From Sabellastarte sp. h YS-2021 (lineage: Eukaryota; Annelida; Polychaeta; Sabellida; Sabellidae): a DNA stretch of 64,000 bases. This document shows positions 905 through 54,695 of the stretch, in pieces; within the stretch, counting starts at the first letter, position 1; every line of letters starts with the position of its first letter. Location: assembly GCA_964017235.1 (NCBI GenBank), contig OZ024927.1:48365293-48429292 (forward strand). Reading direction: 5' to 3'. Both the position numbers and the translations under genes were made by a program. A model generated the notes under the pieces. It did no database searches and was not told the DNA's origin. It saw only the letters and a list, made by a program, of their open reading frames with translations.

Positions 905-919
905 TTAAACAAGAGGAGA

Positions 920-937
920 GTGCCCGTGAACGGGCAC
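920..937 (+). repeat. Left-terminal hairpin of family A copy 1
   Basis: Seven-base perfect stem gtgcccg/cgggcac with loop tgaa. The related copy at about 60068-60090 has a decayed version (gtgccgtgaacgggctc) followed by the same tgtcagctgac. Confidence 0.75.
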
Positions 938-1194
938 TGTGTCAGCTGACGGAGTGTTTTTGATTTGTGAAGGTAATAAATAATGAGAGGAAAACATAAT
1001 TATCAGGGAAAGTGCTGTACAGAAGTACAGTAAATGGTAATTGAACAGCATGTTCAAAAGAAATTCTGAACCTGACAGAAGAAAAGGACAAAAAAGTTGT
1101 GCCCTGCAAATGGTATTATGAAGGAAAGTAACAAGGTAACTGTTTAAGTGTAAAGAGTAGGTTAAAACATATTTAAAGAAATACTGCAAATTCA

Positions 1195-1790
1195 GTATCC
1201 TCGTACGACTTTGAAGAAGGGGTCCAAGGTCAAATCCAACCACACAAAAATATTCCCAGCCCATGGTTTCCTATAGGTTGGTTTACCATCCCAAACCTCT
1301 AGGATCAATAATAAGCGAGTTATAAGCACTTTTAAGTTTGGCTGTCCTTATTTTACCTTGAAGGAGGGGTCCAAAGGTCAAATCTGACCACACCAAAAGA
1401 TTCCCAGCCCATGATTTCCTATAGGATGGTTTACCATCCCAAACCTCTAGAACCAATAATAAGCGAGTTATAGGCACTATTAAGTTTCGCTATATTTGTT
1501 TGACCTTGAAGAAGGGGTCCAAGGTCAAATCGGACAACATCAACAGATTCCCAGCCCATGATTTCCTATATGTCTGTTTACCATTCCAAACCTGCAGGAC
1601 CAATAATAAGCGAGTTATAAGCACTTTTAAGTTTGGCCATCCTCGTTTGACCTTGAAGGAGGGGTCAAAGGTCAAATCTGACCACACCAAAAGATTCCCA
1701 GCCCATGATTTCCTACAGGTTGGTTTGCCATCCCAAACCTCTAGGACCAATAATAATGGAGATATAAGCTCTTTTCATGACTGACAAAGA
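1195..1790 (+). repeat. 148-bp tandem array, four units
   Basis: Four head-to-tail units of about 148 bp. Each contains ccttgaaggaggggtc, aaggtcaaat, ttcccagcccatgatttcct and accaataataagcgagttat. The unit at about 1656 contains the direct repeat GGGTCAAAGGTCA (1662-1674). A single related unit lies at 59080-59190. Open frames on both strands here are by-products of the repeat. Confidence 0.85.
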
Positions 1791-1797
1791 AACACCA

Positions 1798-2075
1798 GTG
1801 GCGGCCATTTTCTTTTTCAAAATGAGCCCAAAAATATTCCCAGTCAAGATTTTATAATGAGAACATATCCTGTGAATATGAGATCTCTACTTATAATACC
1901 CTTTGCTCTAGAGAGCCAACAAAAGTCCTTGTTTAAAGTCGAATAAACGTCCCTAGCGGCCATCTTGTTTTTCAAAATGAGGCCAAAAATATTCCCAGGC
2001 AACATTTTATGGTAATTAATATATTCTGCAAACTTGAGAAGGCTAGCTATAATATTTTTTTTCATTAGAGCGGTA
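1798..2075 (+). repeat. Two degenerate ~157-bp units
   Basis: Two copies of a unit with gcggccat, tttttcaaaatgag and aaaaatattcccag (starting near 1800 and 1957). They bridge the 148-bp and 155-bp arrays of family A. Confidence 0.6.
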
Positions 2076-2114
2076 ATGGTGAAATCTCTCTACACACTGC
2101 GGCTATCCAGTGGA

Positions 2115-3375
2115 TACAATGATTTACTCAATAGTGAGAACCTGAAAGTAGCTATTGCTCAGCTATGCCATGACATAGAGGTCTGCAATTTCACTATGAT
2201 ATAACTGACCAAAAATTATGTGAATAACATATTTAAACAAAATACTCTAAATGTAATAGTTTTCAAGTTACAACTGATTTACTCAACAGTGATAACCTAA
2301 AAGTAGCTATTACTCAGCTATGCCATGAGCTACAGGTCTGAAATTTTACTATGTTATAGGTGACCCAAAAATAGGTGAATAACATAATGAAACAAAATAC
2401 TCTAAATGCAATAGTTTTCAAGTTATAAGTGATTTACTCAACAGTGATAACCTAAAAGTAGCTATTACTCAGCTATGCCATGAGCTACAGGTCTGAAATT
2501 TTACTATGTTATAGCTGACCCAAAAGTAGGTGAACAACATATTTAAGCAAAATACTCTAAATACAATAGTTTTCAAGTTACAACTGATTTACTCAATAGT
2601 GAGAACCTCAAAATAGCTATTGATCAGCTATGCCATGAGCTATAGGTCTGTAATTTCACTATGTTACAGCTGACCCAAAAGTAGGTGAACAACATATTTT
2701 ACCAAAATACTCCAAATGCAATATTTTTCAAGTTACAACTGATTTACTCAACATACAGTACCTGAAAATAGCTATTGCTCAGTTGTGCCATGAGCTACAG
2801 GTCTGTAATTTCACTATGTTATAGCTGACCCAAAAGTAGCTGAATAACATATTTACACAAATTTCTGTAAACGCAATAGTTTTCAAGTTATAAGTGATTT
2901 ACTCAACAGTGATAACCTCAAAGTAGCTATTACTCAGCTATGCCATGAGCTACAGATCTGAAATTTTACTATGTTATAGCTGACCCCAAAATAGGTGAAT
3001 AACATATTGAAACAAAATACTCTAAATGCAATAGTTTTCAAGTTATAAGTGATTTACTCAACAGTGATAACCTAAAAGTAGCTATTACTCAGCTATGCCA
3101 TGAGCTACAGGTCTGAAATTTTACTATTTTATAGCTGACCCAAAAGTAGCTGAATAACATATTTATACGAAATTCTCTAAATGCAATAGTTTTCAAGTTA
3201 CAAGTGATTTTACTCAAGATGGTAGTTACTGAAAAGCCCAAAAGTAGCTATTACTCACTTAGCTATTGAAACAGACACCTAAGTTACTCACCATGTTGTA
3301 GCTATGAAAAAAGTAGCTGAATAACATATTTCAACAAAATGCTCTAAATGCAACACTTTTCAAGTTATAAGTGAT
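2115..3375 (+). repeat. 155-bp tandem array, about eight units
   Basis: Units start with gatttactcaa at 2121, 2276, 2431, 2585, 2741, 2896, 3051 and 3206, a steady 154-156 bp period. Each unit contains agctattactcagctatgcc, gctacaggtctg and aatagttttcaagtta. The same unit makes up most of the shorter sister element at 60130-60780, so it is the diagnostic array of family A. Confidence 0.92.
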
Positions 3376-4031
3376 TTAGTGCATGATTTCATGAATTTTA
3401 ATGCATTAAAAATTATTAAAAAAATTTATTAAAAACAAGCATTCTGACGCATGCATTTATCTCCCGCCATATAAATTAGATGTACTAAAGATAACATATT
3501 TTAACAAGGTGCTCTAAATGTAATACTTTTCAAGTTATAATTGATTCATTGCATGATTTCATGAATTTTAATGCATTAAAAATAGCATCAGAGATGCCCG
3601 TACCCCACAACCTAGGGAAATATTTTCAACACCATGAGATATAGAAGTACTGTACCAGTACAAACTTCAGGATACTTTCAGAGCACTGTCAGTTATATAA
3701 AGGTCCAAACAATGTTTAAATGGAGAAATAATGTTTAAAAGAAAGATAATGCGTATAAAGATGAAGTATTAAAACAAGATAATTCAATGACAAGATGACA
3801 GCATTAATCAGCAAACTAAAATTCAACACTCTTTATATACATCTGCATTTCCGAATTATGGTTTAGATGGTTTGAATATTACCATGCACACAGAAGTGGT
3901 AATACATTTAATGAATGCTTATGTGTGGTGTTGGAGTAAAATCTGCGGCTCACTTGATGAAATTCTATCTCTTACAATGGGAAGTTATGAAAGTAAAATT
4001 CTTAATAAATTCTAATATGACTTTTGCTTAA

Positions 4032-4522
4032 CCCTTTCGCTACCGTGTCTGTCGGCTAGCAGTCGACATCAATGTGTATTACAAGGGACCATGTCTGTCG
4101 ACCAAGGGTCGACGGCAATAATATATATTTCTTCTTTCCCTTCAGTGTACTGTGATACGTTTTCTTTGGTGTATCAGTATTAAACCGATTTTTAAAGTAT
4201 TTTATATGAAAGTTAAGCTATATTTTTTAAAAAAAATTCGCCATTTCACCTATTTTAACTGGTTTCTGTATATATTGCCGTATTTACCGCATATACCTGC
4301 ATATAGTTGCATATTGTTCACTTGTGGTTATTTTTATTTGGGGAATTCCCACGAATTTTCCCATTCGACTTTCATCAATTCCTAATAAAATATGCCGAAA
4401 AATACCGCAAATAAAGTGTATAAGGTAGTGAGATATTACTTTACTTCATTGGCGTTTCTGACATGATATGACGTCATATGGCTACAGTCCCTTGGAATAA
4501 TGTTCCTTCAGTAGCGAAAGGG
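4032..4522. mobile_element. PiggyBac-like MITE with TTAA duplication
   Basis: Perfect 12-bp terminal inverted repeats ccctttcgctac (4032-4043) and gtagcgaaaggg (4511-4522) are flanked on both sides by TTAA (4028-4031 and 4523-4526). The TTAA duplication and CCC...GGG ends are the hallmarks of the piggyBac superfamily. The 491-bp interior is non-coding; its short open frames are not conserved proteins. Subterminal gtctgtcgg...gtcgac motifs occur in the left arm. It interrupts family B copy 1. Confidence 0.88.
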
Positions 4523-4544
4523 TTAATCTGCATCAAAAGACAGA

Positions 4545-5140
4545 CCCAAAGGTGCAACAAGATTTTAAAGGTAAAGGTCACTACAGCAAGGTAAAAGGTC
4601 AAATTAAGGTCACACCATGATAATACACACCTATAGCCAATAACCAATGTCCCTACCAAGTATCAACTTCCTACACCTTACGGTTTCTGAGATATAGCCC
4701 AGACAACATTTTATAGGTCAAGGTCACTACGGCAAGGTCAAAGGTCAAATCAAGGTCACACCATGACGTTGCACACCTACACCCCCTAACCAATGTCCCT
4801 ACCAAATATCAACTTCCCAAGCCTTACAGTTTCCGAGATATAGCCCGGACAACATTTTATAGGTCAAGGTCACTACGGCAAGGTCAAAGGTCAAATCAAG
4901 GTCAGACCATGACGTTGCACACCTACACCCCCTAACCAATCTCCCTACCAAGTATCAACTTCCTACACCTTACGGTTTCCGAGATATAGCCCGGACAAGA
5001 TTTTATAGGTCAAGGTCACTACGGCAAGGTCAAAGGTAAAATCAAGGTCAGACCATGACGTTGCACAGCTACACCCCCTAACCAATGTCCCTACCAAGTA
5101 TCAACTTCCTACACCTTACGGTTTCTGAGATACAGCCCGG
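4545..5140 (+). repeat. 158-bp tandem array with AGGTCA direct repeats
   Basis: About four units of roughly 158 bp, each with ggtcaaggtcactacggcaaggtcaa (in two parts), gttgcacacctaca, caatgtccctaccaagta and gagatatagcccggacaa. Two units contain the exact direct repeat AGGTCAAAGGTCA (4735-4747 and 4881-4893). This array is the body of family B and recurs at 51880-52440. Confidence 0.88.
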
Positions 5141-5149
5141 ACAAACTAT

Positions 5150-5244
5150 TTCCCGCCGCCCGCCCACCCGCCCGCCCGGACGCCCGCCCATCCGGACACC
5201 ATGGGTGAAAACAATACCCCAACAGCCATTAAGGGCTGTGGGGT
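5150..5244 (+). repeat. Right end of family B: CCCG-rich tract and terminal hairpin
   Basis: A GC-rich tract (cgcccgcccacccgcccg...) precedes accatgggtgaaaacaatacccc and the hairpin ccccaacagcc/gggctgtgggg. The same order is present at 53340-53432. Confidence 0.75.
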
Positions 5245-5269
5245 AAAAATTATTTTAAAAATTCATTAA

Positions 5270-6255
5270 AAAAATTTAGCATGTGAAAGCTCTCCCAAAA
5301 TGTAGGTGAATGAGTTATTTGAGAAATATTGGCTATCCGCAATACTTTTAGTGATAATAGGCAGTTACTCATTTTGAGTAGGTGAGTAATTAGCTATGGA
5401 TCTGAAAATTCACTACTTGAAAGCTCTCCAAAATGTATGTGAATGAGTTATTTCAGAAATACTGGCTATCTGCAATACTTGTAGAGATAATTCGCATTTA
5501 CTCATTTTGAGTAGGTGAATAATTAGCTACGGGTGTGAAACTTCACCAAGTGAAAGCTCTCCCAAAAGTAGATGAACGAGTAATTTGATAAAAATTGGAT
5601 ACCCGCAATACTTTTAGAGATAATTAGCATTTACTCATTTTGAGGAGGTGAATAATTAGCTACGGCTCTGAAAATTCACCAAGTGAAAGCTCTCCCAAAA
5701 GTAGGTGAATGAGTTATTTGAGAAAAATTGGCTATCTGCAATACTTTTAGAGTTAATTCACATTTACTCATTTTCAGTAGGTGAGTAATTAGCTATGGGT
5801 CTGGAACTTCACCATGTGAAAGCTCTCCCAAAAGTAGATGAATGAGTTATTTGATAAAAATTGGATATCCGCAATACTTTTAGAGATAATTCACATTCAC
5901 TCATTTTGAGTAGGTGAATAATTAGCTACGGATCTGAAACCTCACCAAGTAAAAGCTCTCCCAAAATTAGGTGAATGAGTTATCTGAGAAAAATTGGATA
6001 TATACAATACTTTTACAGATAATTCACATTTACTCATTTTGAGTAGGTGAGTAATTAGCTACGGGTCTGGAACTTCACCATGTGAAAGCTCTCCCAAAAG
6101 TAGATGAATGAGTTATTTGATAAAAATTGGATATCCGCAATACTTTTAGAGATAATTATCATTTACTCATTTTGAGTAGGTGAATAATTAGCTACGGGTC
6201 TGAAACTTCACTATGTGAAAGCTCTCCCAAAAGTAGATGAAGCAGTTATTTGAGA
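5270..6255 (+). repeat. 133-bp satellite array, about seven units
   Basis: Units of about 133 bp with gtgaaagctctcccaaaagta, gaatgagttatttgag, gcaatacttttagagataat and tttactcattttgagtaggt. It is the same satellite as the large array at 15100-20284, but the units are more diverged from each other here. Confidence 0.88.
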
Positions 6256-9235
6256 AAACTTATGTCATTATTTTGCCACAAATAAGAAAATAGCTATTAC
6301 TCACTTATGGCATGCAATAGAACCCCAAACTATATGCATTTACCCTACAGTCACAATTTCAAAGTAGGTATTACTCGGCTATCCAATGTGCAACAGGTCT
6401 GAAACTTTACTATGTGATAGGTTATCAAAAACTAGATGAATAACATATTTGAAAATATTTCCCTAACTTTAATACTTTTGAAGATATTTGACATTTACTT
6501 ATGTTGTTATTTTGCTACAAATAAGAAAATAGCTATTACTCACTTATGGCATGCAATACAACCCCAAAATATATACCATCTTATAGTTAAGGACAAAGTA
6601 GCTGAACAACATATTTGAAGAAAAAGCTGTAACTGCAATAGTTTTGGAGTTACAATGGATTTACTCAATAGTCACAATTTCAAAGTAGCTATTACTTAGC
6701 TATGCAATGTGCAACAGGTCTGAAACTTTACTATGTGATAGCTTACAAAAAAGTAGATGAATGACATATTTGAAAAGAATTCCGTAACTTTAATACTTCT
6801 GAAGATATTTGACATTTACTTATGTCATTATTTTGCTACTAATAAGAAAATAGCTATTACTCACTTATGGCATGCAATAGAACCCCAAACTACATGCCAG
6901 TTTATAGCTAAGGACAAAGTAGCTGAACAACATATTTGAAGAAAAAGCTGTAACTGCAATAGTTTTGGAGTTACAATGGATTTACTCAACAGTCACAATT
7001 TCAAAGTAGCTAATACTTAGCTATGCAATGTGCAATAGGTCTGAAACTTTACCATGTGATAGCTTACAAAAAAGCAGATGAATGACATATTTGAAAAGAA
7101 TTTCGTAACTTTAATACTTCTGAAGATATTTGACATTTACTTATGTCATTATTTTGCTACTAATAAGAAAATAGCTATTACTCACTTATGGCATGCAATA
7201 GAACCCAAAACTACATGCCAGCTTATAGCTAAGGGCAAAGTAGGTGAACAACATATTTTACGAAAATATTGTAACTGCAATAGTTTTGGAGTTACAATGG
7301 ATTTACTCAACTGTAGAATTTCAAAGTAGCTATTACTCAGCTATCCAATGTGCAACAGATCTAAAACTTTACTATGTGATAGCTTATGAAAAAGTAGATG
7401 GATAACATATTTGAAAAGATTTCCCTAACTTTAATACTTTTGAAGATATTTGACATTTACTTATGTCATGATTTTGCTACAAATAACAAAATAGCTATTA
7501 CTCACTTATGGCATGCAACAGAACCCCAAACTATGTACCATCTTATAGCTAAGGACAAAGTAGCTGAACAACATATTTTAGGAAAATACTCTAACTGCAA
7601 TAGTTTTGGAGTTACAATGGCTTTACTCAACAGTCAGAATTTCAAAGTAGCTGTAACTCAGCTATCCAAGGTGCAACAGGTCTGAAACTTTACTATGTTA
7701 TAGCTTACCAAAAAGTAGATGGACAACATATTTGAAAAGATTTCCCTAACTTTAATACTTTTGAAGATATTTGACATTTGCTTCTTCTGTTATTTAGCTA
7801 CAAATGAGGAAATAGCTATTACTCACTTATGGCAAGCAATAGAACCCCAAACTATGTACCATCTTATAGCTAAGAACAAAGTAGCTGAACAACATATTTT
7901 AGGAAAACACTCTAACTGCAATAGTTTTGGAGTTACAATGGCTTTACTCAACAGTCAGAATTTCAAAGTAGCTATTACTCAGCTATCCAAGGTGCAACAG
8001 GTCTGAAACTTTACTATGTCATAGCTTACCAAAAAGTAGATGGACAACATATTTGAAAAGATTTCCCTAACTTTAATACTTTTGAAGATATTTGACATTT
8101 ACTTCTTCTGTTATTTAGCTACAAATGAGGAAATAGCTATTACTCACTTATGGCAAGCAATAGAACCCCAAACTATGTACCATCTTATAGCTAAGAACAA
8201 AGTAGCTAACAAGATATTTTAGGAAAACACTTTAACTGCAATACTTTTTTAGTTACAATAGCTTTACTCAACAGTCAGAATTTCAAAGTAGATATAACCC
8301 AGCTATCCAAGGTGCAACAGGTCTGAAACTTTACTATGTTATAGCTTACCAAAAAGTAGATGGACAACATATTTGAAAAGATTTCCCTAACTTTAATACT
8401 TTTGAAGATATTTGACATTTACTTCTTCTGTTATTTAGCTACAAATGAGGAAATAGCTATTACTTATGGCAAGCAATAGAACCCCAAAGTATGTACCATC
8501 TTATAGCTAAGAACAAAGTAGCTGAACAACATATTTTAGGAAAAAACTCTAACTGCAATACTTTTTTAGTTACAATAGCTTTACTCAACAGTCAGAATTT
8601 CAAAGTAGCTATTACTCAGCTATCCAAGGTGCAACAGGTCTGAAACTTTACTATGTCATAGCTTACCAAAAAGTAGATGGACAACATATTTGAAAAGATT
8701 TCCCTAACTTTAATACTTTTGAAGATATTTGACATTTACTTCTTCTGTTATTTAGCTACAAATGAGAAAATAGCTATTACTCGCTTATGGCATGCAACAG
8801 AACCCCAAACTATGTACCATCTTATAGCTAAGAACAAAGTAGCTGAACAACGCATTTTAGGAAAACACTCTATGTGCAATAGTTTTGGAGTTACAATGGC
8901 TTTACTCACCAGTCAGAATTTCAAAGTAGCTATTACTCAGCTATCCAGGGTGCAACAGGTCTGAAACTTTAGTATGTGATAGCTTACCAAAAAGAAGATG
9001 GACAACATATTTGAAAAGATTTCCCTAACTTCAATACTATTGAAGATATTTGACATTTACTTCTTCTGTTATTTAGCTACAAATGAGAAAATAGCTATTT
9101 CTCACTTGTGGCATGCAATGGGACCCCAAACTATGTACCATCTTATAGCTAAGGACAAAGTAGCTGAACAACATATTTGAAGAAAAAGTTGTTACTGCAA
9201 TTATAGTTTTTGAGTTATGAGCCCTTTACTCAAAG
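6256..9235 (+). repeat. 321-bp tandem array, about nine units
   Basis: Higher-order unit of 320-321 bp, with starts at 6436, 6757, 7078, 7398, 7719, 8040, about 8361, 8677 and 8998. Each half resembles the other, so the unit is an old dimer of about 160 bp. Many units keep an open frame beginning MDNIFEKISLTLILLKIFDI, up to 95 codons long. The frame has no recognisable domain and breaks in some units, so I do not call it a gene. Confidence 0.9.
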
Positions 9236-9349
9236 TAGCTAAGATTGCTATTACTCACTTATCTTTAGGCCTAAGTCAATAAAACCCAAAAAACTTTTCA
9301 AGGGCATGAAAATTCATTGGGACAGTTTACAAAAAATCTGTAGCTGTAG

Positions 9350-9455
9350 TAGTTTTGGAGAAATCTGCGTGACTAACTAATGCACACACGCACGCACGCA
9401 TGCACAGACATCATTTCATAATCTCCCTCCCGGGCTAAAGCCCAGCGGGAGATAA
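9350..9455 (+). repeat. Element end: CGCACA-rich tract and hairpin
   Basis: A tract acacacgcacgcacgcatgcacag is followed by a hairpin with nested stems, atctccc/gggagat and gggct/agccc (9421-9453). This motif pairs with tatctcccgcc ends at 3456, 15030 and 44975 and probably marks the end of the element that brought in the 133/321-bp arrays. Confidence 0.55.
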
Positions 9456-9458
9456 AAA

Positions 9459-9805
9459 AGTAAGACAGATCCAGGTCTCATACTCACACAAGAGAATCTA
9501 CCTCTGGCCTAGTACATATATGCAAGATATGAGAGAAATCCCTGCAATAGTCACTGAGAAAATTGTGATCAAGTGTTGAAATTTTCACACTTTTGGTGGG
9601 GGTACCTCCCTTGTAACTTCTCTAGCAAACAGACGAACAGACAGATTTTCATGCCTTGAACAATTTTTCATCCTCGATAGATAAGGTATCTTTTAAAAAA
9701 AACAGCATGTCTCTAGGCCTTGTAGTTTTGGAGAAGTTGTTCACGCGGACGCCCACGCTGCAGAGTGACGACATAATGTCAGCTGACTGACAAGTCAGCT
9801 GACAT
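9459..9805 (+). repeat. Right subterminal region and terminal hairpin of family A
   Basis: The segment from agacagatccaggtc to the hairpin at 9776-9805 matches 61170-61540 almost throughout, including ctagtacatatatg, tttttcatcctcgatag and gttgttcacg. It defines the right end of family A. Confidence 0.8.
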
Positions 9806-9809
9806 AAAA

Positions 9810-10844
9810 AAAGGATGCATGAAATGAAATAAAACATTGATCATATTCTATATTTGATTGTACTCCCCATTTTACACAAAATTTTACACACTCAAAGTTG
9901 TTAACAAACCCTGACACTCTCTGTCTGATCCTGGGATTATGCCAAACTTAATAAAAAGTTAGATTTTCAATCTAGATTTTAGGGCTTTTAATGCAATTAA
10001 GTACAACAACTTCAACAACTAAAGCAACATTTACATCAACAGGGACATGCAAGTACACTGCACTTGGTTCAAAGCCATTTATACATTTTAAGCTAACAGA
10101 ACAGAACTGACATAATGCAATCTGCCACCACATTATAAACCGAATCACAGCACAAAACTGAATATTAACAGTTTTAAGTGAAAACTTTTTCAAAAATAGT
10201 GTAAAAGAAGGTTAAGGTAATTACTGTGTAAAATATCGCATACAGTTGATGGTACATAAACCATGAGAGAGATTAGGAATTAAAACTAAAATAAAATCTC
10301 GGTTAAAAGAAATGGTGTGGTGAATTAAACCTTACTATTGGATATTTGTAGATAAAACACATGCATTGCAAATTAAATAAATGCCACAAAGATAACCTTG
10401 TTGTTGCTACTATTATTAAGTCTTTATACTAATGGTATAGTTTAACTGTTGGAAAAAAAACCAGAAAACAAATGGGAATAGAGCTGTACAGAAAATATGT
10501 TCATGCATTATAAGAGTTGTTTACCCTGAGAATATTCATGCAAAACAGAAATACAATACAAAATAAAGATAATAAGAGTAGTATGTAACCTTCTTCAAAG
10601 GATCCAACTATGTTGCCTGAGTTCATATACACTTTTATTCAGTGCTGATTTTTTCCCATTAGAAATAAATCAATTATGCAAAAAAAATTTTTTTTTTTTT
10701 TTTTTTGTAAATAAATATATACCAGCCTTTTCAGTCACAGCCTAAAGTCCCACCAGATTTTTAAATTCTCTTGAAAGGAAATGTTACCATGACCTATCTA
10801 AAGCAATATTATTTACAAAATGTATAACCCTTCCAAGCAGGTAT
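9810..10844. other. ATP7 intron sequence, no gene seen
   Basis: AT-rich sequence with no repeat ends or ATPase-like exon. It includes an A/T homopolymer tract at about 10681-10706. Confidence 0.45.
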
Positions 10845-11075: not shown

Positions 11076-11189
11076 TAAAACAAGTACTTAACTGGTTCAC
11101 TCAACCTTTTGAGATATGCAAACAAATGTGAAAACATAACCTTTCACCCTTGGTGTAAATAATAATTAAATTAAAAACATAAGTACCAC

Positions 11190-12617
11190 CTTCAGCATGC
11201 ACTTTATAGCCAATTCCTTCCACCACACGGATGATATCAGCCTGGGAGAGGTTACTGGGATTAAACACAACATCACAGGTCTGACTAAGCAAAATCACTT
11301 TCACCGAGAGCACCCCAACCAGACCAGACAGAGCTTCTGTTATGTTAGACACACAATTACTGCTCCTCATCCCCTTCAACTTTACTGAGAGAGTGGAAAC
11401 CATCTCAGCATTACCTGGAGATTTGTTTATCAGGCTCGGTACTTTCAAGGCATTGGCGCGCACACTTGGTTCAGCCAAGACATGAGCTTCAAAACCCATG
11501 TCGTCAATACGCTCAGAAATAATGTAAGGATCCGTCACACTCCTATTGTAGTTCACTGTGGCCAAGCCTTCTTTGTGCAGGACTTTGATGTTATTCACTC
11601 CTGGCATATTACCAATGACATCTTCAATGTTGTCCACGCATGAGTGACAAGTCATGCCATTTATTCCGATAACACATATCCCATTCATAGATTTATTCTT
11701 CTCTGCATTGCGCCGAGCTATTTCATCAAAATCCTCTTCAATGGTAATTTTTGCTTCAAATCCCATATCACATATCCTATCTTTGAGTGTAGAAGGATTG
11801 GTTATGGTGGGATCGTAACCTATTACAGCATGCTTCTCACTTAACGACACCTTAATCTTCCCCACGCCTGGCATTCCTGACACCACATCCTCTATATTGC
11901 CCACACACGATTGGCAAGTCATTCCTTCAATGTCGATCACCACTGACTCTGTCGCTTTGATGGGTGGTGCACTTTGCTCTTTGCCCTGAGCCAATGGATC
12001 AAACTCTAGGGCTATTGGTAAAGAGGCTTCAAAACCCATATCATCGATGGCATCCCTAAGTGCAGTTGGGCTTGTAACATTTGCATCATACTGAATCACA
12101 GCTTCTTTCTTCTCCAAGGACACATTGATAGATTTGACACCTGGCTTTTCTCCGATCGTACCCTCTATATTGTTCACACAAGAATTGCACGTCATGCCCT
12201 TTACACTGATGACCACTTCTGCAGATGATGACGAGGGTTTCTTGGTGGTCTGAGCTTGCGGGAGACTGGCTTCAAATCCCATGTCATCTATATGACTCCG
12301 AAGAGTCTCTGGATCTGTAAACGTAGGGTCATAAACAATGGATGCCTTCTTTTCAGCAAGCGACACTTTGATTTCAATCACACCTGATTTTTCACCCATC
12401 ACCTCTTCTATATTCCTGACACAGGAGTTACAAGTCATGCCTTCCACATTTACAGTAGTGGACTGCTGGGAGGGGGAGGGCTTCTTGTTGGGTTTTGGAG
12501 TAGTATTAGAAATGACACCATTGCCGAGATGTTTTTCACTGGGTGAAGTCAAGGAGGCAGAAAACCCCATGTCATCAATGGCATTCCTTAGACTTTCCGC
12601 AGATAGCCTCCCATTTT
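11190..12617 (-). CDS. ATP7: ATP7-like copper-transporting ATPase, coding exon 4 (HMA domains 2-7)
   Basis: This long exon follows the acceptor ttttgtttag (12618 upward). It completes HMA domain 2 and encodes five more HMA domains. Their metal motifs are GMTCNSC (Cys188/191 of the joined protein), GMTCNSC (269/272), GMTCQSC (360/363), GMTCHSC (449/452), and a degenerate GMRSSNC in which the first cysteine is Ser544 and only Cys547 remains. Each domain ends near the usual DMGFEAS, except the last (EGIGYKVHAEG). Linkers are Ser/Pro/Lys-rich, as expected for flexible ATP7 N-termini. The reading frame stays open past the exon, but the protein family signal stops at HAEG, so the donor is probably gtggta at 11184-11189; gtactt three bases later is an alternative. 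Seven domains exceed the six of human ATP7A/B. The transmembrane, A-, P- and N-domains are absent from this window and must lie on lower coordinates outside it. Confidence 0.92.
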
Positions 12618-12910
12618 CTAAACAAAAACGAAATAATAACCAGTAAAAATTGTTGGCCTTTTGTTATTTATAATTCCGGTTTTTATGTTTCTATTTCTTT
12701 GTTTCTGTACACAAGCAGAGAAAAATGCATTTTTTTTTTAAACTTGGGCTAACAGAAAATGATTTTTAAAGAGAGGTTTCTATTGTCTTAACTGTTGAGC
12801 TTTTGTGTGCTTTTTAAAAGCTGGGATCATACCAGGTACAATATAAGTGTTATCCAAGCTGAAATTTATTTACGAATAGTATTGCTAATTGTCTCCATTT
12901 TAGTCCTTAC

Positions 12911-14615: not shown

Positions 14616-14689
14616 AAAAAAGATAATGTTTTTGCATAGCAAAAACAAAGCGTCCCGAAAAGGATATAAAGGTGAGTGCTAAAGTATTA

Positions 14690-15008
14690 AGAAAATGCTT
14701 CGTTTCTAGCCTTATACTGTTGTGGCAACCAAAGTCAGCGCAGTCTGCTCTATCTAGCACGGTTTTCACGATATAAGCATTTTTGTGTTTTGCAAAAAAT
14801 AAAAAAATTAAAAATGTCCGCTATATTTGGCGAGACAAAAATATTTGGAAAATTGGCATGGCTACTCTGCAGAGATACCCAGCAGGTCAAAAATTTTGTT
14901 GAGTTCGCTCCATATAGCACAGTTTTCGAGATATAAGCATTTTTGTGTTTTGCAAAAACTTTGAAAATTCAAAATGCCCACCATTTTTGGGGAGACAAAA
15001 ATTTTTGT
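14690..15008 (+). repeat. 169-bp array, left part (two units)
   Basis: Two diverged units with tctatctagcacggttttc, gatataagcatttttgtgttttgc and tggcgagacaaaaat. The last unit breaks off at gagacaaaaatttttg and resumes at 20285 with tgggatagctgctctgcag. Confidence 0.8.
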
Positions 15009-15099
15009 CGAGACCACTACCGTGGTGTGTATCTCCCGCCGAGCATTAAAGCAGAAGAAATAGCTTTTCCGAGATATTCACAATTTTTCATTTTCGTGT

Positions 15100-18000
15100 G
15101 TGAAAGGTCTTCCAAAAGTAGGTGAATGAGTTATTTGAGAAAAATTGGCTATCTGCAATACTATTAAGAGATAATTCACATTTACTCATTTTGAGTAGGT
15201 GAATAATTATCTATGGGTCTGAAACTTCACCAAGTGAAAGCCCTCCCAAAAGTAGGTGAATGAGTTATTTGAGAAAAATTGGCTATCTGCAATACTTTTA
15301 GAGATAATTCGCATTTACTCATTTTGAGTAGGTGAGTAATTAGCTATGGGTCTGAAACTTCACCATGTGAAAGCTCTCCCACAAGTAGATGAATGAGTAT
15401 TTGATAAAAATTGGGTATCCGCAATACTTTTACAGATAATTAGCATTTACTCATTTTGAGTAGGTGAATAAATAGCTATGGGTCTGAAACTTCACAGAGT
15501 GAAAGCTCTCCCAAAAGTAGGTGAATGAGTTATTTGAGAAAAATTGGCTATCTGCAATACTTTTAGAGATAATTCACATTTACTCATTTTGAGTAGGTGA
15601 ATAATTAGCTATGGGTCTGAAACTTCACCAAGTGAAAGCTCTGCCAAAAGTAGGTGAATGAGTTATTTGAGAAAAATTGGCTATCTGCAAAACTTTTAGA
15701 GATAATTCGCATTTACTCATTTTTAGTAGGCGAGTAATTAGCTATGGGTCTGAAACTTCACCAAGTGAAAGCTCTCCCAAAAGTAGGTGAATGAGTTATT
15801 TGAGAAAAATTGGCTATCTGCAATACTTTTAGAGATAATTCGCATTTACTCATTTTTAGTAGGCGAGTAATTAGCTATGGTTCTGAAAATACCAAGTGAA
15901 AGCTCTCCCAAAAGTAGGTGAATGAGTTATTTGAGAAAAATTGGCTATCTGCAATACTTTTAGAGATAATTCGCATTTACTCATTTTGAGTAAGTGAGTA
16001 ATTAGCTATGGGTCTGAAACTTCACCAAGTGAAAGCTCTCCCAAAAGTAGGTGAATGAGTTATTTGAGAAAAATTGGCTATCTGCAATACTTTTACAGAT
16101 AATTCGCATTTACTCATTTTGAGTAGGTGAGTAATTAGCTATGGGTCTGAAACTTCACGAAGTGAAAGCTCTCCCAAAAGTAGGTGAATGAGTTATTTGA
16201 GAAAAATTGGCTATCTGCAAAACTTTTAGAGATAATTCGCATTTACTCATTTTTAGTAGGCGAGTAATTAGCTATGGGTCTGAAACTTCACCAAGTGAAA
16301 GCTCTCCCAAAAGTAGGTGAATGAGTTATTTGAGAAAAATTGGCTATCTGCAATACTTTTAGAGATAATTCGCATTTACTCATTTTTAGTAGGCGAGTAA
16401 TTAGCTATGGTTCTGAAACTTCACCAAGTGAAAGCTCTCCCAAAAGTAGGTGAATGAGTTATTTGAGAAAAATTGGCTATCTGCAATACTTTTAGAGATA
16501 ATTCGCATTTACTCATTTTGAGTAAGTGAGTAATTAGCTATGGGTCTGAAACTTCACCAAGTGAAAGCTCTCCCAAAAGTAGGTGAATGAGTTATTTGAG
16601 AAAAATTGGCTATCTGCAATACTTTTACAGATAATTCGCATTTACTCATTTTGAGTAGGTGAGTAATTAGCTATGGGTCTGAAACTTCACGAAGTGAAAG
16701 CTCTCCCAAAAGTAGGTGAATGAGTTATTTGAGAAAAATTGGCTATCTGCAATACTTTTAGAGATAATTCGCATTTACTCATTTTGAGTAGGTGAGTAAT
16801 TAGCTATGGGTCTGAAACTTCACGAAGTGAAAGCTCTCCCAAAAGTAGGTGAATGATTAATTTGACAAAAATTGGCTATCTGCAATACTTTATGAGATAA
16901 TTCGCATTTACTCATTTTGAGTAGGTGAGTAATTAGCTATGGGTCTGAAACTTCACCAAGTGAAAGCTCTCCCAAAAGTAGGTGAATGAGTTATTTGAGA
17001 AAAATTGGCTATCTGCAATACTTTTACAGATAATTCGCATTTACTCATTTTGAGTAGGTGAGTAATTAGCTATGGGTCTGAAACTTCACGAAGTGAAAGC
17101 TCTCCCAAAAGTAGGTGAATGAGTTATTTGAGAAAAATTGGCTATCTGCAATACTTTTAGAGATAATTCGCATTTACTCTTTTTGAGTAGGTGAGTAATT
17201 AGCTATGGGTCTGAAACTTCACAGAGTGAAAGCTCTCCCAAAAGTAGGTGAATGAGTTATTTGAGAAAAATTGGCTATCTGCAATACTTTTAGAGATAAT
17301 TCGCATTTACTCATTTTGAGTAGGTGAGTAATTAGCTATGGGTCTGAAACTTCACCAAGTGAAAGCTCTCCCAAAAGTAGGTGAATGAGTTATTTGAGAA
17401 AAATTGGCTATCTGCAATACTTTTACAGATAATTCGCATTTACTCATTTTGAGTAGGTGAGTAATTAGCTATGGGTCTGAAACTTCACCAAGTGAAAGCT
17501 CTCCCAAAAGTAGGTGAATGAGTTATTTGAGAAAAATTGGCTATCTGCAATACTTTTACAGATAATTCGCATTTACTCATTTTGAGTAGGTGAGTAATTA
17601 GCTATGGGTCTGAAACTTCACCAAGTGAAAGCTCTCCCAAAAGTAGGTGAATGAGTTATTTGAGAAAAATTGGCTATCTGCAATACTTTTAGAGATAATT
17701 CGCATTTACTCATTTTGAGTAGGTGAGTAATTAGCTATGGGTCTGAAACTTCACCATGTGAAAGCTCTCCCACAAGTAGATGAATGAGTTATTTGATAAA
17801 AATTGGGTATCCGCAATACTTTTACAGATAATTAGCATTTACTCATTTTGAGTAGGTAAATAATTAGCTATGGGTCTGAAACTTCACCATGTGAAAGCTC
17901 TCCCAAAAGTAGGTGAATGAGTTATTTGAGAAAAATTGGCTATCTGCAATACTTTTAGAAATAATTCGCATTTACTCATTTTGAGTAGGTGAATAATTGG

Positions 18001-20284
18001 CTATGGGTCTGAAACTTCACCATGTGAAAGCTCTTCCAAAAGTAGGTGAATGAGTTATTTGAGAAAAATTGGCCATCTGCAATACTTTTAGAGGTAACTC
18101 GCATTTACTCTTTTTGAGTAGGTGAGCAATTAGCTATGGGTCTGAAACTTCACCAAGTGAAAACTCTCCCAAAAGTAGGTGAATGAGTTATTTGAGAAAA
18201 ATTGGCTATCTGCAATACTTTTAGAGATAATTCGCATTTACTCATTTTGAGTAGACGAGTAATTAGCTATGGGTCTGAAACTTCACCAAGTGAAAGCTCT
18301 CCCAAAAGTAGGTGAATGATTAATTTGAGAAAAATTGGCTATCTGCAATACTTTTAGAGATAATTCGCATTTACTCATTTTTAGTAGGCGAGTAATTAGC
18401 TATGGGTCTGAAACTTCACGAAGTGAAAGCTCTCCCAAAAGTAGGTGAATGAGTTATTTGAGAAAAATTGGCTATCTGCAATACTTTTAGAGATAATTCG
18501 CATTTACTCATTTTGAGTAGGTGAGTAATTAGCTATGGGTCTGAAACTTCACCAAGTGAAAGCTCTCCCAAAAGTAGGTGAATGAGTTATTTGAGAAAAA
18601 TTGGCTATCTGCAATACTTTTACAGATAATTCGCATTTACTCATTTTGAGTAGGTGAGTAATTAGCTATGGGTTTGAAACTTCACGAAGTGAAAGCTCTC
18701 CCAAAAGTAGGTGAATGAGTTATTTGAGAAAAATTGGCTATCTGCAATACTTTTAGAGATAATTCGCATTTACTCTTTTTGAGTAGGTGAGTAATTAGCT
18801 ATGGGTCTGAAACTTCACAGAGTGAAAGCTCTCCCAAAAGTAGGTGAATGAGTTATTTGAGAAAAATTGGCTATCTGCAATACTTTTAGAGATAATTCGC
18901 ATTTACTCATTTTGAGTAGGTGAGTAATTAGTAGTGCTGGGAGATCGCTTGGATTTTTCCTGTCGATGTTCGTATCGGACATTTGTAACCAAACTTCGAA
19001 CATTTCCGATTATGGAGTTGAAGTGTAAAAAAGACAGATAAAATATTAATATTAAATTATATCAAGTAAAATACACACAAATTGCCACAAATATGACCAA
19101 AATATAATCTAAAAGCCATTCACAGACGTCTCCCTCACTAACAGACCATGCTTGATGTATCCTCACTTGTGATTGGCTGATTTTGATTACCTTGACAACA
19201 GTGGGAAAACCCCAAGGTGTTTCTAATTACGTTATTTTTATTGCATTCACGGCTAGTTTTGTGATTTTAACTGATGGATATTTCAGATTTTTACAAAATA
19301 TTATTAAGGTTAGTATTTTATTGTGACCAAAAGGCTGCAAAGAAATGGATTTAGCAAATATCGGTTTTACTTAAATTTTGCCGATCATTGATTGGCAATG
19401 AGCCAGCGAGCGATAATACCGAAGTTTGCGAACATCGTCCCAGCACTAGTAATTAGCTATGGGTCTGAAACTTCACGAAGTGAAAGCTCTCCCAAAAGTA
19501 GGTGAATGATTAATTTGACAAAAATTGGCTATCTGCAATACTTTATGAGATAATTCGCATTTACTCATTTTGAGTAGGTGAGTAATTAGCTATGGGTCTG
19601 AAACTTCACCAAGTGAAAGCTCTCCCAAAAGTAGGTGAATGAGTTGAGAAAAATTGGCTATCTGCAATACTTTTACAGATAATTCGCATTTACTCATTTT
19701 GAGTAGGTGAGTAATTAGCTATGGGTCTGAAACTTCACCAAGTGAAAGCTCTCCCAAAAGTAGGTGAATGAGTTATTTGAGAAAAATTGGCTATCTGCAA
19801 TACTTTTACAGATAATTTGCATTTACTCATTTTGAGTAGGTGAGTAATTAGCTATGGGTCTGAAACTTCACCATGTGAAAGCTCTCCCACAAGTAGATGA
19901 ATGAGTTATTTGATAAAAATTGGGTATCCGCAATACTTTTACAGATAATTAGCATTTACTCATTTTGAGTAGGTAAATAATTAGCTATGGGTCTGAAACT
20001 TCACCATGTGAAAGCTCTCCCAAAAGTAGGTGAATGAGTTATTTGAGAAAAATTGGCTATCTGCAATACTTTTAGAAATAATTCGCATTTACTCATTTTG
20101 AGTAGGTGAATAATTGGCTATGGGTCTGAAACTTCACCATGTGAAAGCTCTTCCAAAAGTAGGTGAATGAGTTATTTGAGAAAAATTGGCCATCTGCAAT
20201 ACTTTTAGAGGTAACTCGCATTTACTCTTTTTGAGTAGGTGAGCAATTAGCTATGGGTCTGAAACTTCACCAAGTGAAAGCTCT
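15100..20284 (+). repeat. 133-bp satellite array, about 35 units
   Basis: About 35 units of 133 bp (for example starts at 15632, 15765, 16029 and 16162), interrupted by the hAT MITE at 18932-19448. Unit variants recur in register: an actcatttttagtaggcgag variant recurs about 530 bp apart. A variant with tatgagata occurs at 16891 and 19544, and one with ggccatctgc at 18071 and 20188. After removing the MITE and its duplication (525 bp) these spacings are 16 and 12 units. This suggests a four-unit higher-order repeat and block duplication. Confidence 0.92.
18932..19448. mobile_element. hAT-like MITE with 8-bp duplication
   Basis: The 517-bp element starts tagtgctggga and ends tcccagcacta, with inverted repeats of 11 bp that continue imperfectly. 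It is flanked by a perfect 8-bp duplication gtaattag (18924-18931 and 19449-19456) taken from the surrounding satellite unit. The 8-bp duplication and TAG/CAG-type ends point to the hAT superfamily. It has no transposase. The interior (about 19080-19220) has a diverged reverse-oriented relative at 38190-38480. Confidence 0.9.
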
Positions 20285-21385
20285 TTGGGATAGCTGCTCT
20301 GCAGAGATACCCTGAAGATAAAAAATTTCGTCGAAATCGCTCTATGTAGCACGGTTTTCGAAATATAAGCATTTTTGTGTTTTGCAACTTTTGCGCAAAA
20401 ATTCGAAAATTCAAAATGGCCGCCATTTTTGGCAAGATAAAATTTTTTTGAAAATTGGCATGGCTACTCTGCAGATATACCCTGTGGGTCAAAAATTTCG
20501 TCGAAATCGCTCTATCTAGCACGGTTTTCGAGATATAAGCATTTTTGTGTTTTGCAATTTTTGCGAAAAATTTGAAAATTCAAAATGGCCGCCATTTTTT
20601 GCGAGAAATTTTTTGTTTGAAAATTGGCATGGCTACTCTGCAGAGATACCCTGCGGGTCAAAAATTTCGTCGAAATCGCTCTATCTAGCAGGGTTTTTGA
20701 GATATAAGCATTTTTATGTTTTGCAATTTTTGCGAAAAATTCGAAAATTCAAAATGGCCGCCATTTTTGGCGAGACAAAATTTTTTTGAAAATTGGCATG
20801 GCTACTCTGCAGATGTACCCTGTGGGTCAAAAATTTCGTCGAAATCGCTCTATCTAGCAGGGTTTTCGAGATATAACCATTTTTATGTTTTGCAATTTTT
20901 GCGAAAAATTCGAAAATTCAAAATGGCCGCCATTTTTGGCGAGACAAAATTTTTTTCAAAATTGGGATAACTACTCTGCAGAGATACCCTGAGGGTCAAA
21001 AATTTCGTTGAAATCGCTCTATCTAGCACGGTTTTCGAGATATAAGCATTTTTGTGTTTTGCAATTTTTGCGAAAATTTCGAAAATTCAAAATGGCCGCC
21101 ATTTTTGGCGAGACAAAAATTTTTTGAAAATTGGGAAAAGTACTCCGCAGAGATATCCTGCGGGTCAAAAATTTTGTCGAAATTGCTCTATCTAGCACGG
21201 TTTTTGAGATATAAGCATTTTTGTGTTTTGCAATTTTTGCGAAAATTTCGAAAATTCAAAATGGCCGCCAATTTTTTTGAAAATTGGGAAAACTACTCCG
21301 CAGAGATACCCTGTGGGTCAAAAATTTCGTCGAAATCGCTCTATCTAGCACGGTTTTCGAGATATAAGCATTTTTGTGTTTTCCT
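20285..21385 (+). repeat. 169-bp array, right part (six to seven units)
   Basis: Units of about 169 bp (tcaaaatggccgcc at about 20411, 20580, 20749, 20918, 21087 and 21257). Each has aaatcgctctatctagcacgg, gagatataagcattttt and gccgccatttttgg. The many MAAIFGETKFF-type open frames come from the repeat and are not genes. Confidence 0.92.
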
Positions 21386-21766
21386 TATTTGGAAAATTCG
21401 TAATGATTAATTAATCATTAATTACTCGGCCATTTCTTGACCAATCAATGCCAAAATCTAATGATTTCCAGATTTTAATAGAATGAATGCATTTGCCAAG
21501 TTTCAGGTGAATTGATAAAATTCCTTTCAAGTTATCATCCGGACAAGCTTCCCCATCGAAAAAAGACATTTTTGGTCATGTGACCTCTCTGATTGGTTGA
21601 AATGTCACTGCAGCATATTCAAAAAAATTCCCCAGGGCTACTGCCTAAACCTGCCAAATTTGAAAAGAATCCGCCTAACGGTTAGAGTTATAAGGAAAAC
21701 AAAATGCGGAGCCGGCGGAGCCGGAAGCTCACCCATACACAAACAAGCGTCCCTTGCGGGACGCTT
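21386..21766 (+). repeat. Right subterminal region and terminal hairpin of family D
   Basis: Non-array sequence ending in a ggcggagccgg tract, then acacaaacaagcgtccc and the 9-bp hairpin. It resembles the ends at 57040-57104 and 58430-58492, each of which has a GC-rich tract followed by gtgaaaacaaataag. Confidence 0.7.
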
Positions 21767-21810
21767 AAATATCAATACTTGTATATGTATTGCTGCATGT
21801 ATTCAGGAAG

Positions 21811-22046
21811 GGGCCATGGTGGCAGAGTGGTAACACTCTTGCCTCTCACCTCTGAGATCGAAGTTCAAATCCCGACCCAACCTCAAGTGGGAAAGCTGGT
21901 AGTTGTTTGCTATTGGTTGCCAGTTTACAGTACAGAACCTTGACCAACTGTATGTACTGGTTTCCTCTGCCCATAAAACTATCCATCATAATATGACCTG
22001 TACAAAGTGTTGAAAGCGACGATAAAACCCAATAAATAAATAAATA
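21811..22046 (+). mobile_element. tRNA-headed SINE, copy 1
   Basis: The head carries a pol III A box (tggcagagtgg) and a decayed B box (agttcaaatcc). The body continues cctcaagtgggaaagctgg and tgtactggtttcctctgcc, with a tail gttgaaagcgacgataaaa(cccaataaataaat). An 11-bp duplication tattcaggaag flanks the whole at 21800-21810 and 22869-22879, because a TIR element (22047-22864) later inserted into the tail. Two minus-strand copies are at 28424-28658 and 62735-62961. Confidence 0.9.
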
Positions 22047-31669: not shown

Positions 31670-32229
31670 GTCACAGCAGCACAGTGAATTACAGAAATGT
31701 ATTCCTTTGATGGCCCCCTTTTATGTGTTCTAAAGAAAGATAGATCAAATGATGGCATGGATTACCTGCACAACTATAATCTAGAAGATTAAAGGAAATT
31801 GCTGCTCTGGTGAGAGCTGCTCATCTGAGCAGATACCACAATTAAAGGGACAAAATAGGGTAATTGCAATTCAGATAAAAAATTAGTGTTGTCATAAAAA
31901 TGTTGATTTGATGATTTTAGAGATTACACCTTTCAAAGATTTAGTGCAATTTCTAATTCCCCTAGTGGTAGTTCCAATTGGAACTAATTCCCCTAGTGCT
32001 GCTTCCAATTAGAAGTACAACTAGAAATAGGACGCCCTGTTGCTTGTAGCTGCAACATATGAATAGAAACAGGATAGCATAGAAGAACACACATTATCAT
32101 GTGTAATGTCCACCCTATCAACCTTTTACAAAAATTGTACAGTAATCTTACAAGGCCCTGTTTCATCTGTAAAATATATCAATGATGCTTAAATATTTAT
32201 TAGTATACATGTAAATTATTTCAGCTTCA

Positions 32230-32590
32230 TGCCTTTTTGCATTGGTTGGGTAGAAAATTTTGACGAAATCGTTCTATCTTGCATGGTTAAGGCGATAGAA
32301 GCGAATTTCCGTTTTTCAATTTTTGGCAAAAATTCAAAATGGCTGCCATATGTGGGAAGAGGAATATTTTTTGAAAACTGCCAAGGGTACACTGGTCAGA
32401 TACCCTGTGGGTTCATTGAAATCGCTCTATCTCGCACGGTTAAGGAGACAGAAGCAAACTTGCATTTTTTTCATTTTAGGCAAAAACTGAAAAATTCAAA
32501 ATGGCCGCCATTTTTGGGGAGAGTAAAATATTTTGAAAATTGCCAATAGTACATTGATTAGATACCCTGTGGGTTGAAAATTTCTACGAA
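32230..32590 (+). repeat. 168-bp-type units, two
   Basis: Two diverged units of the kind that fills 25510-26640 (cgctctatctcgcacggtta, tggccgccatttttgggg). The array then changes sharply to the 151-bp type near 32590. Confidence 0.75.
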
Positions 32591-35285: not shown

Positions 35286-35289
35286 AAAT

Positions 35290-35700
35290 TACTCAAAAGT
35301 AGTACTGAAAATACACAATGAAGTACCTAAATGGCTATTACTCATGTACTGACAAAGCTATCAGTCCCAAATGCAATACCAAGCGAGCTATGGACATAAC
35401 AATCTTGTATTCAAAATTGTAGTAAAATATCTTTAATTATTTTGGCTTAAATGCACGGAAACCAATGGGTACTGAAAATAGCTGTACTTAAGTATTACTC
35501 GGTAAGCAAAAGAGGTACAACAGCCAAAAGCAATCCCAAGCAAGCTACTGACCCAATAAGCCTGCACACCAAATTTGGTGACAATAGCTCTAATACTTTT
35601 CCTTTAAATGAGCGGAAACCATGCGTGATGCCGGACATCGGACGCCGGACGGCAGAAAAAGCAAAAATAATATATCCACCCCCCAGGGGGGTGGACATAA
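35290..35700 (+). repeat. Right subterminal region of the Helitron-like element
   Basis: Non-array sequence containing tggctattactcatgtactg, gcggaaaccatgcgtgatg and gacatcggacgccggacgg, then the terminal hairpin. Codon-like frames here are not supported as genes. Confidence 0.55.
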
Positions 35701-35844
35701 CTAGTGGTAGTTCCAATTGGAAGCAGCACTAGGGGAATTAGAAATGGCACTAGTGACAGTTCCAATTGGAAGTAGCACTAGTGGTAGTTCCAATTAGGGG
35801 AATTAGAAATGGCACTGGATTGGAGTTTCCACTGTGACATATGC

Positions 35845-43969: not shown

Positions 43970-45005
43970 TTATCTCCTGCGAGTGGCCGACATTATAAAA
44001 CGTATTCCGTACGTACGTGCTTCCGTCTGTCCATCTGTTCATCACGCTTTTACATAAATCTTAATATCTCATTTATTTATAAAGATACCTTCACCAAATT
44101 TGCATGGAATGTTTATGGCTATGAAAACAAGTCTGTGCAAAATTTTGGCTTCATTTTGAAAAACAAAATGGCTGCCATAGCCAATTGTTTGAAAATCATA
44201 AAGATGCTCTAAATCTTGAAATATTGCACATAGCTTCATCAAATTTGTACAAAAGATATATGGCTGGGAAAGCTAGTCAGACAGTAATTTTAGCCTAGTT
44301 TGCAAAATAAAATGGCCGCCATATCACGTTTAATGTCAAAAAGGCCTTATATCTCCCTTACCATTACTCCTAGGGGTTTGTGATGTGAAAACAATTCATT
44401 GGAAATCATGGCCTGGCAATATTTCCCAGAAGTTGAATTTGGCCTTTGACACCTGCTTCAAGGTTAAATGAGGTCATCATACTAAAGCATCCTTATATCT
44501 CCCTTATTATTGGTGCTGGGGCTTCCGAATATAAAACCAGCCAATGATAAGTCCTGGTCTGCAAATGTTTTGGCTGTGAACAATTTTGGCATCATTTTGA
44601 AAAACAAAATGGCTGCAATCGCCAATTATTTGAAAATCATTAAGATGCTGTCAAACTTCAAACATTGTGGCTAGGTTAATCAAATTTGCACAAAAGATAT
44701 ATGGCCAGGAACGTTTGCCTGATAGTAATTTTGGCCTAGTTTTGAAAACAAAATGGCCACCATATCATTTTTAATGTCAAATGGGATTATCCTATTAAAA
44801 AGGGCTTATATCTCACTTATCATAGCTACTAGGGGGTTTGGAATGTAAAAACAACTTATAGGAAGTCATGGCCTGGGAATCTTTTCCAATTGCTGACTTT
44901 GACCTCTGACCCCTTCCTCGGTGTCTACAAAGGCCTTATATCTCTCTTAGTTCTCATATATTACTGATCCTAAGGCGGGAAATAACCACTGCTGCAGTGG
45001 CCTTG
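43970..45005 (+). mobile_element. Pearl-like element with a ~442-bp repeat (family E)
   Basis: It starts at ttatctcctgc, with tacgtacgtgcttccgtctg nearby. It ends at gcgggaaataa followed by a 7-bp hairpin ccactgc/gcagtgg (44986-45000). A unit with aaacaaaatggctgc...caattgtttgaaaatcat at 44161 repeats at 44604 (442 bp). Motifs such as ccttatatctccctta recur. The right end is the reverse complement type of the border at 15015-15040. Confidence 0.65.
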
Positions 45006-45009
45006 TTTT

Positions 45010-53252: not shown

Positions 53253-53432
53253 GACGTTGCACACCTACAGCCCCTAACCAATGTCTCTACCAAGTATCAA
53301 CTTCCTACACCTTCCGCTTTCTAAGATATAGCCCGGACAAACTTTTTCCCACCGCTCGAATGCCCGCCCGACTGCCCATCCGAACACCATGGGTGAAAAC
53401 AATACCCCAACAGCCCTTAAGGGCTGTGGGAT

Positions 53433-54600: not shown

Positions 54601-54695
54601 GTCAAGTCTATACATTTGACCAATTTACATAGTGTATGTGAATAAGTAGCTAGATCAACAACTCCTACTGCTAAACAAAGCTGAACTAGATGAAT

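Follow-up and report, generated by a model that had tools for sequence, protein, structure and literature searches.

The locus examined here raises the question of how one copy of a mobile element can become several times longer than another while both retain the same two ends. The DNA is a 64,000-nucleotide stretch from the annelid Sabellastarte sp. h YS-2021 (GenBank assembly GCA_964017235.1, contig OZ024927.1, positions 48,365,293 to 48,429,292, forward strand), hereafter termed the window, which holds a long copy (A) and a short copy (B) of one element. An original prediction, made from the sequence of the window, held that the large copy had gained arrays with repeat units of 148, 133 and 321 bp plus a nested element, and that such a mobile element serves as a seedbed for satellite DNA. 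Our analysis indicates that A and B are very probably copies of one family of non-autonomous Helentrons (HINEs), whose lengths differ through the number of array units and, in A, through the presence of a second, nested element (D). Most of the extra length of A is D, a separate element inserted in a 9-base A tract of A.

A long and a short copy with shared ends

The limits and terminal features of the two copies are as follows, where subTIR denotes a subterminal inverted repeat.

908 to 9810, minus strand: outer element A, HINE-like, with its 5′ end at 9810 and its 3′ end at 908; 8,903 bp including D and 2,883 bp without it (aligned termini and genome search)
9774 to 9810, minus strand: 5′ end of A, with T-rich terminus, subTIR TGTCAGCTGAC, loop and inverted repeat
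9454 to 9773, minus strand: conserved module and GC-rich stretch on the 5′ side of A (A/B alignment and genome search)
908 to 950, minus strand: 3′ end of A, with 3′ subTIR (940-950), then palindrome GTGCCCGT..ACGGGCAC, then terminus
60061 to 61546, minus strand: short copy B, 1,486 bp, a variant without the 148-bp block, with ~4 units of the 155-bp array and a duplicated 174-bp module

Both ends of A and B are homologous, as evident by 85% identity over 59 alignment columns on the left (908-966 versus 60061-60117) and 82% identity over 382 columns on the right (9454-9810 versus 61167-61546). The claims that the two copies share their ends as members of one mobile family and differ six-fold in length (8,903/1,486 = 6.0) are therefore borne out. 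B is nevertheless a distinct variant, with 87.9% identity to the right module of A when gaps are excluded. The end originally called left is the 3′ end of the element, and the hairpin at 917-940 corresponds to the 3′ palindrome when compared with the HINE layout.

A genome search with positions 9430-9812 as the query yielded 2,561 candidates, and the following figures rest on the best 40 of these that were scored. The match starts at 9454 in 38 of the 40 full-length rows and ends at 9810-9812 in all 40; four additional short rows were also recovered. These boundaries place the right end of the family at 9810 and show that sequence not belonging to it stops at 9454. The limits of A and B were also set by family members aligned at both ends, which comprise 17 left-end rows and 27 right-end rows (six of the latter being overlapping duplicates) besides A and B. 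In addition, the subTIR TGTCAGCTGAC has 10 matches in the window when one mismatch is allowed on both strands, a count in which a palindromic site may score twice, versus 0.67 expected, and none of 100 shuffles reached 10. The two ends occur together, in order and no more than 9.9 kb apart, in 16 of 20 genomic copies (counting L013, whose left end is shortened), and in 17 of 20 after a small stretch is added. The end modules thus co-occur at short distance as predicted, and neither of the contrary outcomes named beforehand (modules that fail to co-occur, or ends belonging to separate insertions) was encountered.

A second element and further layers nested in A

The nested layers of A, and a second copy of one of them, are listed below, where MITE denotes a miniature inverted-repeat transposable element.

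3436 to 9455, minus strand: nested element D, ~6.0 kb, in the A-tract of A, with its 5′ end near 9455-9461 and its 3′ end at 3436 (empty site and genome rows)
3584 to 5243, minus strand: element E1, nested in D, with a 146-bp array (4557-5144); a second copy, E2, has matching ends
4030 to 4524, no strand assigned: MITE in E1, with TTAA on both sides and inverted ends CCCTTTCGCTAC (sequence read directly)
5283 to 6258, minus strand: 133-bp array in D (array detection)
6339 to 9201, minus strand: 321-bp array in D, a dimer, both halves of which resemble the 155-bp unit
51463 to 53432-53436, minus strand: element E2, the second E-family copy, interrupted at about 52442-53252

When positions 3330-3435 of A are joined to 9450-9560, the resulting sequence matches B at two places with the alignment running through the junction, and the tract lacks an insert in all 25 rows from other, simple copies (19 distinct copies after six overlapping duplicates are dropped). 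The right end of D is likewise defined by a search with positions 9202-9500, in which the match stops at 9455-9465 in 36 of the 40 rows scored among at least 1,962 candidates. D exists independently of A, given that its left end is found at an unrelated site in genomic copy L013 and that its end adjoins other sequence at four loci (L034, L035, L036 and L038). Without D, A measures 2,883 bp, and the 16 ordinary copies (B, A, L017 and L024 excluded) span 1,949-4,746 bp. The predicted nested element in the large copy is thus real, with an empty site in 19 of 19 distinct simple copies. The proposed gain of extra arrays by A does not hold, because the 133-, 321- and 146-bp arrays sit inside D and E1 and were not acquired singly.

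D holds the 133-bp array, the 321-bp array and E1, and an empty site for E1 is provided by the D copy in L013, which lacks it. Insertion began with the outer element, followed by D, E1 and finally the MITE, provided that each entered where it is now found; the nesting order and the empty sites of D and E1 are direct observations, as are the shared ends, the family, the collinearity of arrays and the use of the tract more than once. The MITE, which we take to be piggyBac-like, has no second match within the 64-kb window. A separate insert at 52442-53252 interrupts the 146-bp array of E2; GACGTTGC flanks this insert on the left and right, and we presume that it could be a hAT-like MITE.

Probable assignment to the HINE class

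Read on the minus strand, A opens with a T-run followed by TGTCAGCTGAC; beyond a short loop lie GTCAGCTGACA and a GC-rich stretch, and after the arrays come GTCAGCTGAC, a palindrome and the short terminus. By inspection, the HINE layout is present in elements A, B, C, D, E1, E2, G and H1 (C, G and H1 are described below), and the 5′ subTIR with its nearby complementary inverted repeat is strong in A, C, E1, E2 and H1; both are imperfect in the other three, B, D and G. The arrangement of hairpin, box and box-loop-box was also sought in an untargeted scan, which returned four cases on the plus strand (A, C, H1 and E2) and two on the minus strand. Shuffling the plus strand 100 times gave a mean of 0.22 cases and a maximum of 2, so the two minus-strand cases are not above chance and only the plus-strand count stands out. 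The 3′ subTIR and palindrome are present in the 17 left-end rows of the outer family, with a base altered or lost in some boxes. Central tandem arrays are also present, and the position expected for a microsatellite in A is occupied by a GC-rich stretch that is not a clean microsatellite.

The insertion sites fit the same class. No target duplication was found in the joined flanks of four outer copies (L009, L022, L026 and L027) compared with their relatives in the window; 5-6 bases present in the relative are missing from the joined flanks, and these are only A in L009 and L027. D is likewise inserted in an A-tract. The profile Helitron_like_N matches 24 places in the 1.79-Gb genome, one of them within an open frame of 2,245 amino acids. 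When this Rep locus was searched with 4 kb on each side, the scan used detected no hairpin, and nothing there matched the window.

Several points weigh against this assignment. The 5′ ends of two further elements, H2 and I, are poor, and the left end was not seen in the stretch retrieved for three of the 20 genomic copies (L010, L015 and L019). Those 20 copies are the best matches to the right module of A, and the sample is therefore biased toward near relatives of A. The missing bases are AAACA in L026 and GAATA in L022, making the target A-rich and not a pure run, and the A-runs at the junctions mask any short A-rich duplication. AAAAAT flanks E1 on both sides and could equal a 6-bp target duplication. 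Finally, a check of one of the 24 Helitron_like_N loci turned up no autonomous element that bears these ends.

We infer a mechanism of movement from these features. A Rep/helicase supplied by an autonomous relative would nick at the T-rich 5′ end, rolling-circle replication would copy the element and stop at the 3′ subTIR and palindrome, and the copy would enter an A/T-rich site without duplicating it. Among ordinary copies (1.5-4.7 kb), the numbers of 148- and 155-bp units vary, with the arrays carried along. In A, a second HINE, D (~6 kb), entered the 9-base A tract with its own 133- and 321-bp arrays, and D received E1 and E1 the MITE. HINEs carry the same type of tract that HINEs enter, and thus they may nest in one another.

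Hairpins at both ends had suggested a single-strand transposon of the IS200/605-like or Replitron-like kind, and this candidate was dropped because the subTIR pairing and 3′ palindrome fit HINEs in several families. The window gave no Rfam matches at gathering scores, and no viral contig contained an exact copy of a 21-base segment taken from the 5′ hairpin. Pfam searches with four frames of the window, besides the heavy-metal-associated frame described below, found nothing.

Origin of the tandem arrays

Two arrays belong to the outer element itself.

967 to 2114 (array 1196-1775), minus strand: 148-bp array and flanks, a regular part of the family that is absent from B
2115 to 3378, minus strand: 155-bp array of the outer element, ~8 units

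Array detection confirmed that the 148-, 133- and 321-bp arrays are real. However, the 148-bp array was not gained by A, because, of the 20 copies that were counted, 19 contain the block (A, L017 and 17 more) and B is the only one without it. Both halves of the 321-bp unit are similar to the 155-bp unit, one at 81% over 134 bp and the other at 78% over 116 bp; the relation is weaker for the 133-bp unit, with 75% over 55 bp only. Copies carry 0-6 units of 148 bp and 2-16 units of 155 bp by profile, where the count for L017 takes in units within its own D. Length tracks array content, with a Spearman coefficient of 0.95 across 17 copies (B among them) that have no large nested insert.

Comparison of 155-bp monomers among 20 copies places the nearest relative in another copy for 197 of 207 monomers and in the same copy for only 10. 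All 13 monomers of L009 are collinear with the 13 of L027b, even though the two lie on different contigs with different flanks. Monomers 3-6 of A align with 7-10 of the 11 in L012 and with 9-12 of the 12 in L013. Mean monomer identity is nearly the same within copies (87.1%) as between copies (87.3%). Local block duplications do occur, as in L018 (units 10-11 versus 12-13) and L025 (units 7-8 versus 10-11). Since the nearest monomers lie in other copies and in collinear order, the arrays are mostly inherited with the element at transposition. By these monomer relationships, arrays mostly travel with the element, with blocks of units gained or lost between copies.

Inserts of 5.6-6.6 kb interrupt the 155-bp array in L010, L015, L019 and L024, with their longest frames on the same strand in all four and their junctions at differing points of the monomer. 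We take these inserts to be of the DIRS class. The four inserts were considered as the coding part of an autonomous partner, an idea rejected for L015: one of its four frames hit Pfam, with RVT_1 and RVT_3 above cut-offs and RNase_H and RT_RNaseH below them in the same frame, and the other three gave no match. Pfam was run on L015 alone; by eye, long frames of a similar kind are present in L024 and a shorter frame in L010, and the L019 insert is likened to that of L015 through its ends and a 130-amino-acid frame only. Also by eye, positions 834-895 of the window, just beyond the 3′ end of A, resemble the terminus of the L024 insert.

Repeated entry of D-type elements into one tract

L017 has a D-type element that agrees with that of A in orientation and, to the base, in insertion point, with different flanks outside, an outer part of another subgroup and a D of another subtype. 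When L032 is compared with A and L017 by their outer parts, three origins of the insertion are required on the best tree, and a single origin appears in none of 200 bootstrap trees. Well-supported branches force only two origins; most forks are open, and shuffled labels perform as well as the real ones. A search for the left junction of D found the junction spanned in 24 of 40 scored rows, the window included. Eight junction loci that were read closely show two D subtypes (A, L042 and L046 versus L040, L041, L043 and L044) and several outer types. Judged from these junctions and trees, D-type elements have entered the same tract independently at least twice, and probably three or more times.

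Approximately six D-in-tract loci would be expected by chance, from at least 1,962 D candidates and 2,561 outer candidates distributed over ~865,000 A/T runs. This is a rough figure on rough inputs, as the runs (8 or more A/T) are extrapolated from the window and the junction queries favor junction loci. We therefore claim no enrichment of D at the A-tract, and a special hot spot is possible. As a tentative proposal, the A-tract in the 5′ module might be a built-in landing pad that draws D-type relatives repeatedly, at one base and in one orientation, such that composites with multiple arrays are built stepwise and some (perhaps A and L042) then move as one.

Alternative explanations

Growth in place would have A beginning at about the size of B, its arrays expanding and diversifying on site as the seedbed proposal implies. 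Part of the evidence agrees with that proposal: unit numbers vary widely between copies, length follows array content, some blocks are duplicated locally with 10 of 207 monomers nearest to their own copy, and the 155-bp unit is related to the 321-bp halves and, to a lesser degree, to the 133-bp unit. What does not agree is the placement of the 133-, 321- and 146-bp arrays between the ends of D, whose exact empty site is seen in other copies and which contradicts growth in place for these arrays, together with the 197 monomers closest to another copy, the 13/13 collinearity and the equal identities within and between copies. We consider this explanation improbable. The idea that positions 908 and 9810 are the ends of two adjacent but separate insertions is refuted, because the ends co-occur in order in most copies with the 148- and 155-bp arrays between them, and we found no point in its favor. 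There is also very little likelihood that the family consists of MITE-like DDE transposons with tandem repeats. Such elements were earlier annotated as MITEs, which the excerpted text of PMC4067079 calls incorrect, and the present family lacks terminal inverted repeats at its extreme ends, lacks target duplication in the four joined flanks, and carries both the 5′ subTIR hairpin and the 3′ palindrome.

A more substantial alternative accepts that A and B are HINEs and holds that the composite of outer element and D formed once and then moved as a unit, so that a single insertion would be ancestral to A, L017 and the remaining junction loci. The junctions of A and L017 are base-identical on both sides while the flanks outside differ, many rows span the D-left junction, and A and L042 share a D subtype with outer sequence that is 97.3% identical over 300 bp. 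Moreover, only two origins are forced, and the clade that holds A in one tree is unresolved in the bootstrapped tree. Nevertheless, the three changes on the best tree, the failure of any bootstrap tree to give one origin, and the different D subtypes and outer types among junction loci make a single origin unlikely.

Other features of the window

Further HINE-like elements occupy much of the window.

14625 to 21772, minus strand: element C, another HINE-like family, with subTIR AAGCGTCCC and a 169-bp array; a D-like 3′ end and a 133-bp array lie inside
32085 to 35703, minus strand: element H1, HINE-like, with a 151-bp array
54683 to 57112, minus strand: element G, HINE-like, with an imperfect 5′ end and a 158-bp array

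Within the 169-bp array of C, positions 15000-20284 comprise a D-like 3′ end and, after it, a 133-bp array of ~39 units, and no D 5′ end was seen there. Element I (43970-45010, plus strand) has 148-like repeats and D-type ends and is poorly preserved. The eight elements not nested in A (A, B, C, E2, G, H1, H2 and I) total 27,906 bp, or 43.6% of the window, a figure that includes H2 and I with poorly defined ends and I on the opposite strand. Orphan ends of the C/G type are present at 53812, 58473 and 62245, and G may be nested in a larger relative. By eye, tRNA-derived sequences resembling short interspersed nuclear elements lie in opposite orientation at 21810-22040 and 62740-62960, with no Rfam match. 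An open reading frame on the minus strand (11101-12663) encodes five heavy-metal-associated domains, which we presume to indicate an ATP7-type gene.

Relation to known elements and significance

The comparisons below are with systems as they are described in excerpts of the cited sources, and likenesses are of description, not of sequence. Cg_HINE of the Pacific oyster carries a 5′ subTIR, complementary inverted repeat and microsatellite on one side and a 3′ subTIR and palindrome on the other; its central arrays have mostly 140-180 bp units, some copies have two arrays, some are inserted into other repeats, and a T-rich target is used without duplication (PMC7492417). The Sabellastarte family resembles it in end layout, arrays, absence of target duplication, T-rich target, paired arrays and insertion into repeats. 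It differs in having as many as 16 units of 155 bp together with as many as six of 148 bp, and three nested layers of which two (D and E1) are resolved by empty sites. Pearl elements of oysters and ark clams, now classed as HINEs, carry short arrays of ~160-bp central repeats (PMC7492417), and short central arrays in HINE-class elements are the likeness here.

DINE-1/HINE elements and Helentrons are described as having subTIRs, an inverted repeat near the 5′ subTIR, a 3′ palindrome, central repeats and a T-rich target that is not modified (PMC4067079), all of which are shared by the present family. However, the present subTIR core is palindromic as in mite HINEs, yet the inverted repeat is present as in DINE-1, and no autonomous partner is tied to the family here. 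Shuffled Helitron/satellite loci of Crassostrea gigas similarly show elements within elements, several array types per element, and one array in different elements (PMC12628747). At the present locus, by comparison, layers could be separated singly and one landing tract was used more than once. By analogy with these systems, the family would belong to a known kind of repeat-carrying mobile DNA, the HINEs, resolved here layer by layer.

For one locus that holds several arrays, this analysis gives a clear order of events in which the arrays are nested cargo and not local invention. It bears on whether satellite-like arrays grow in place or are dispersed already formed by rolling-circle elements, as well as on the origin of elements with two array types. 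Repeated use of the same tract makes this route to nesting testable genome-wide.

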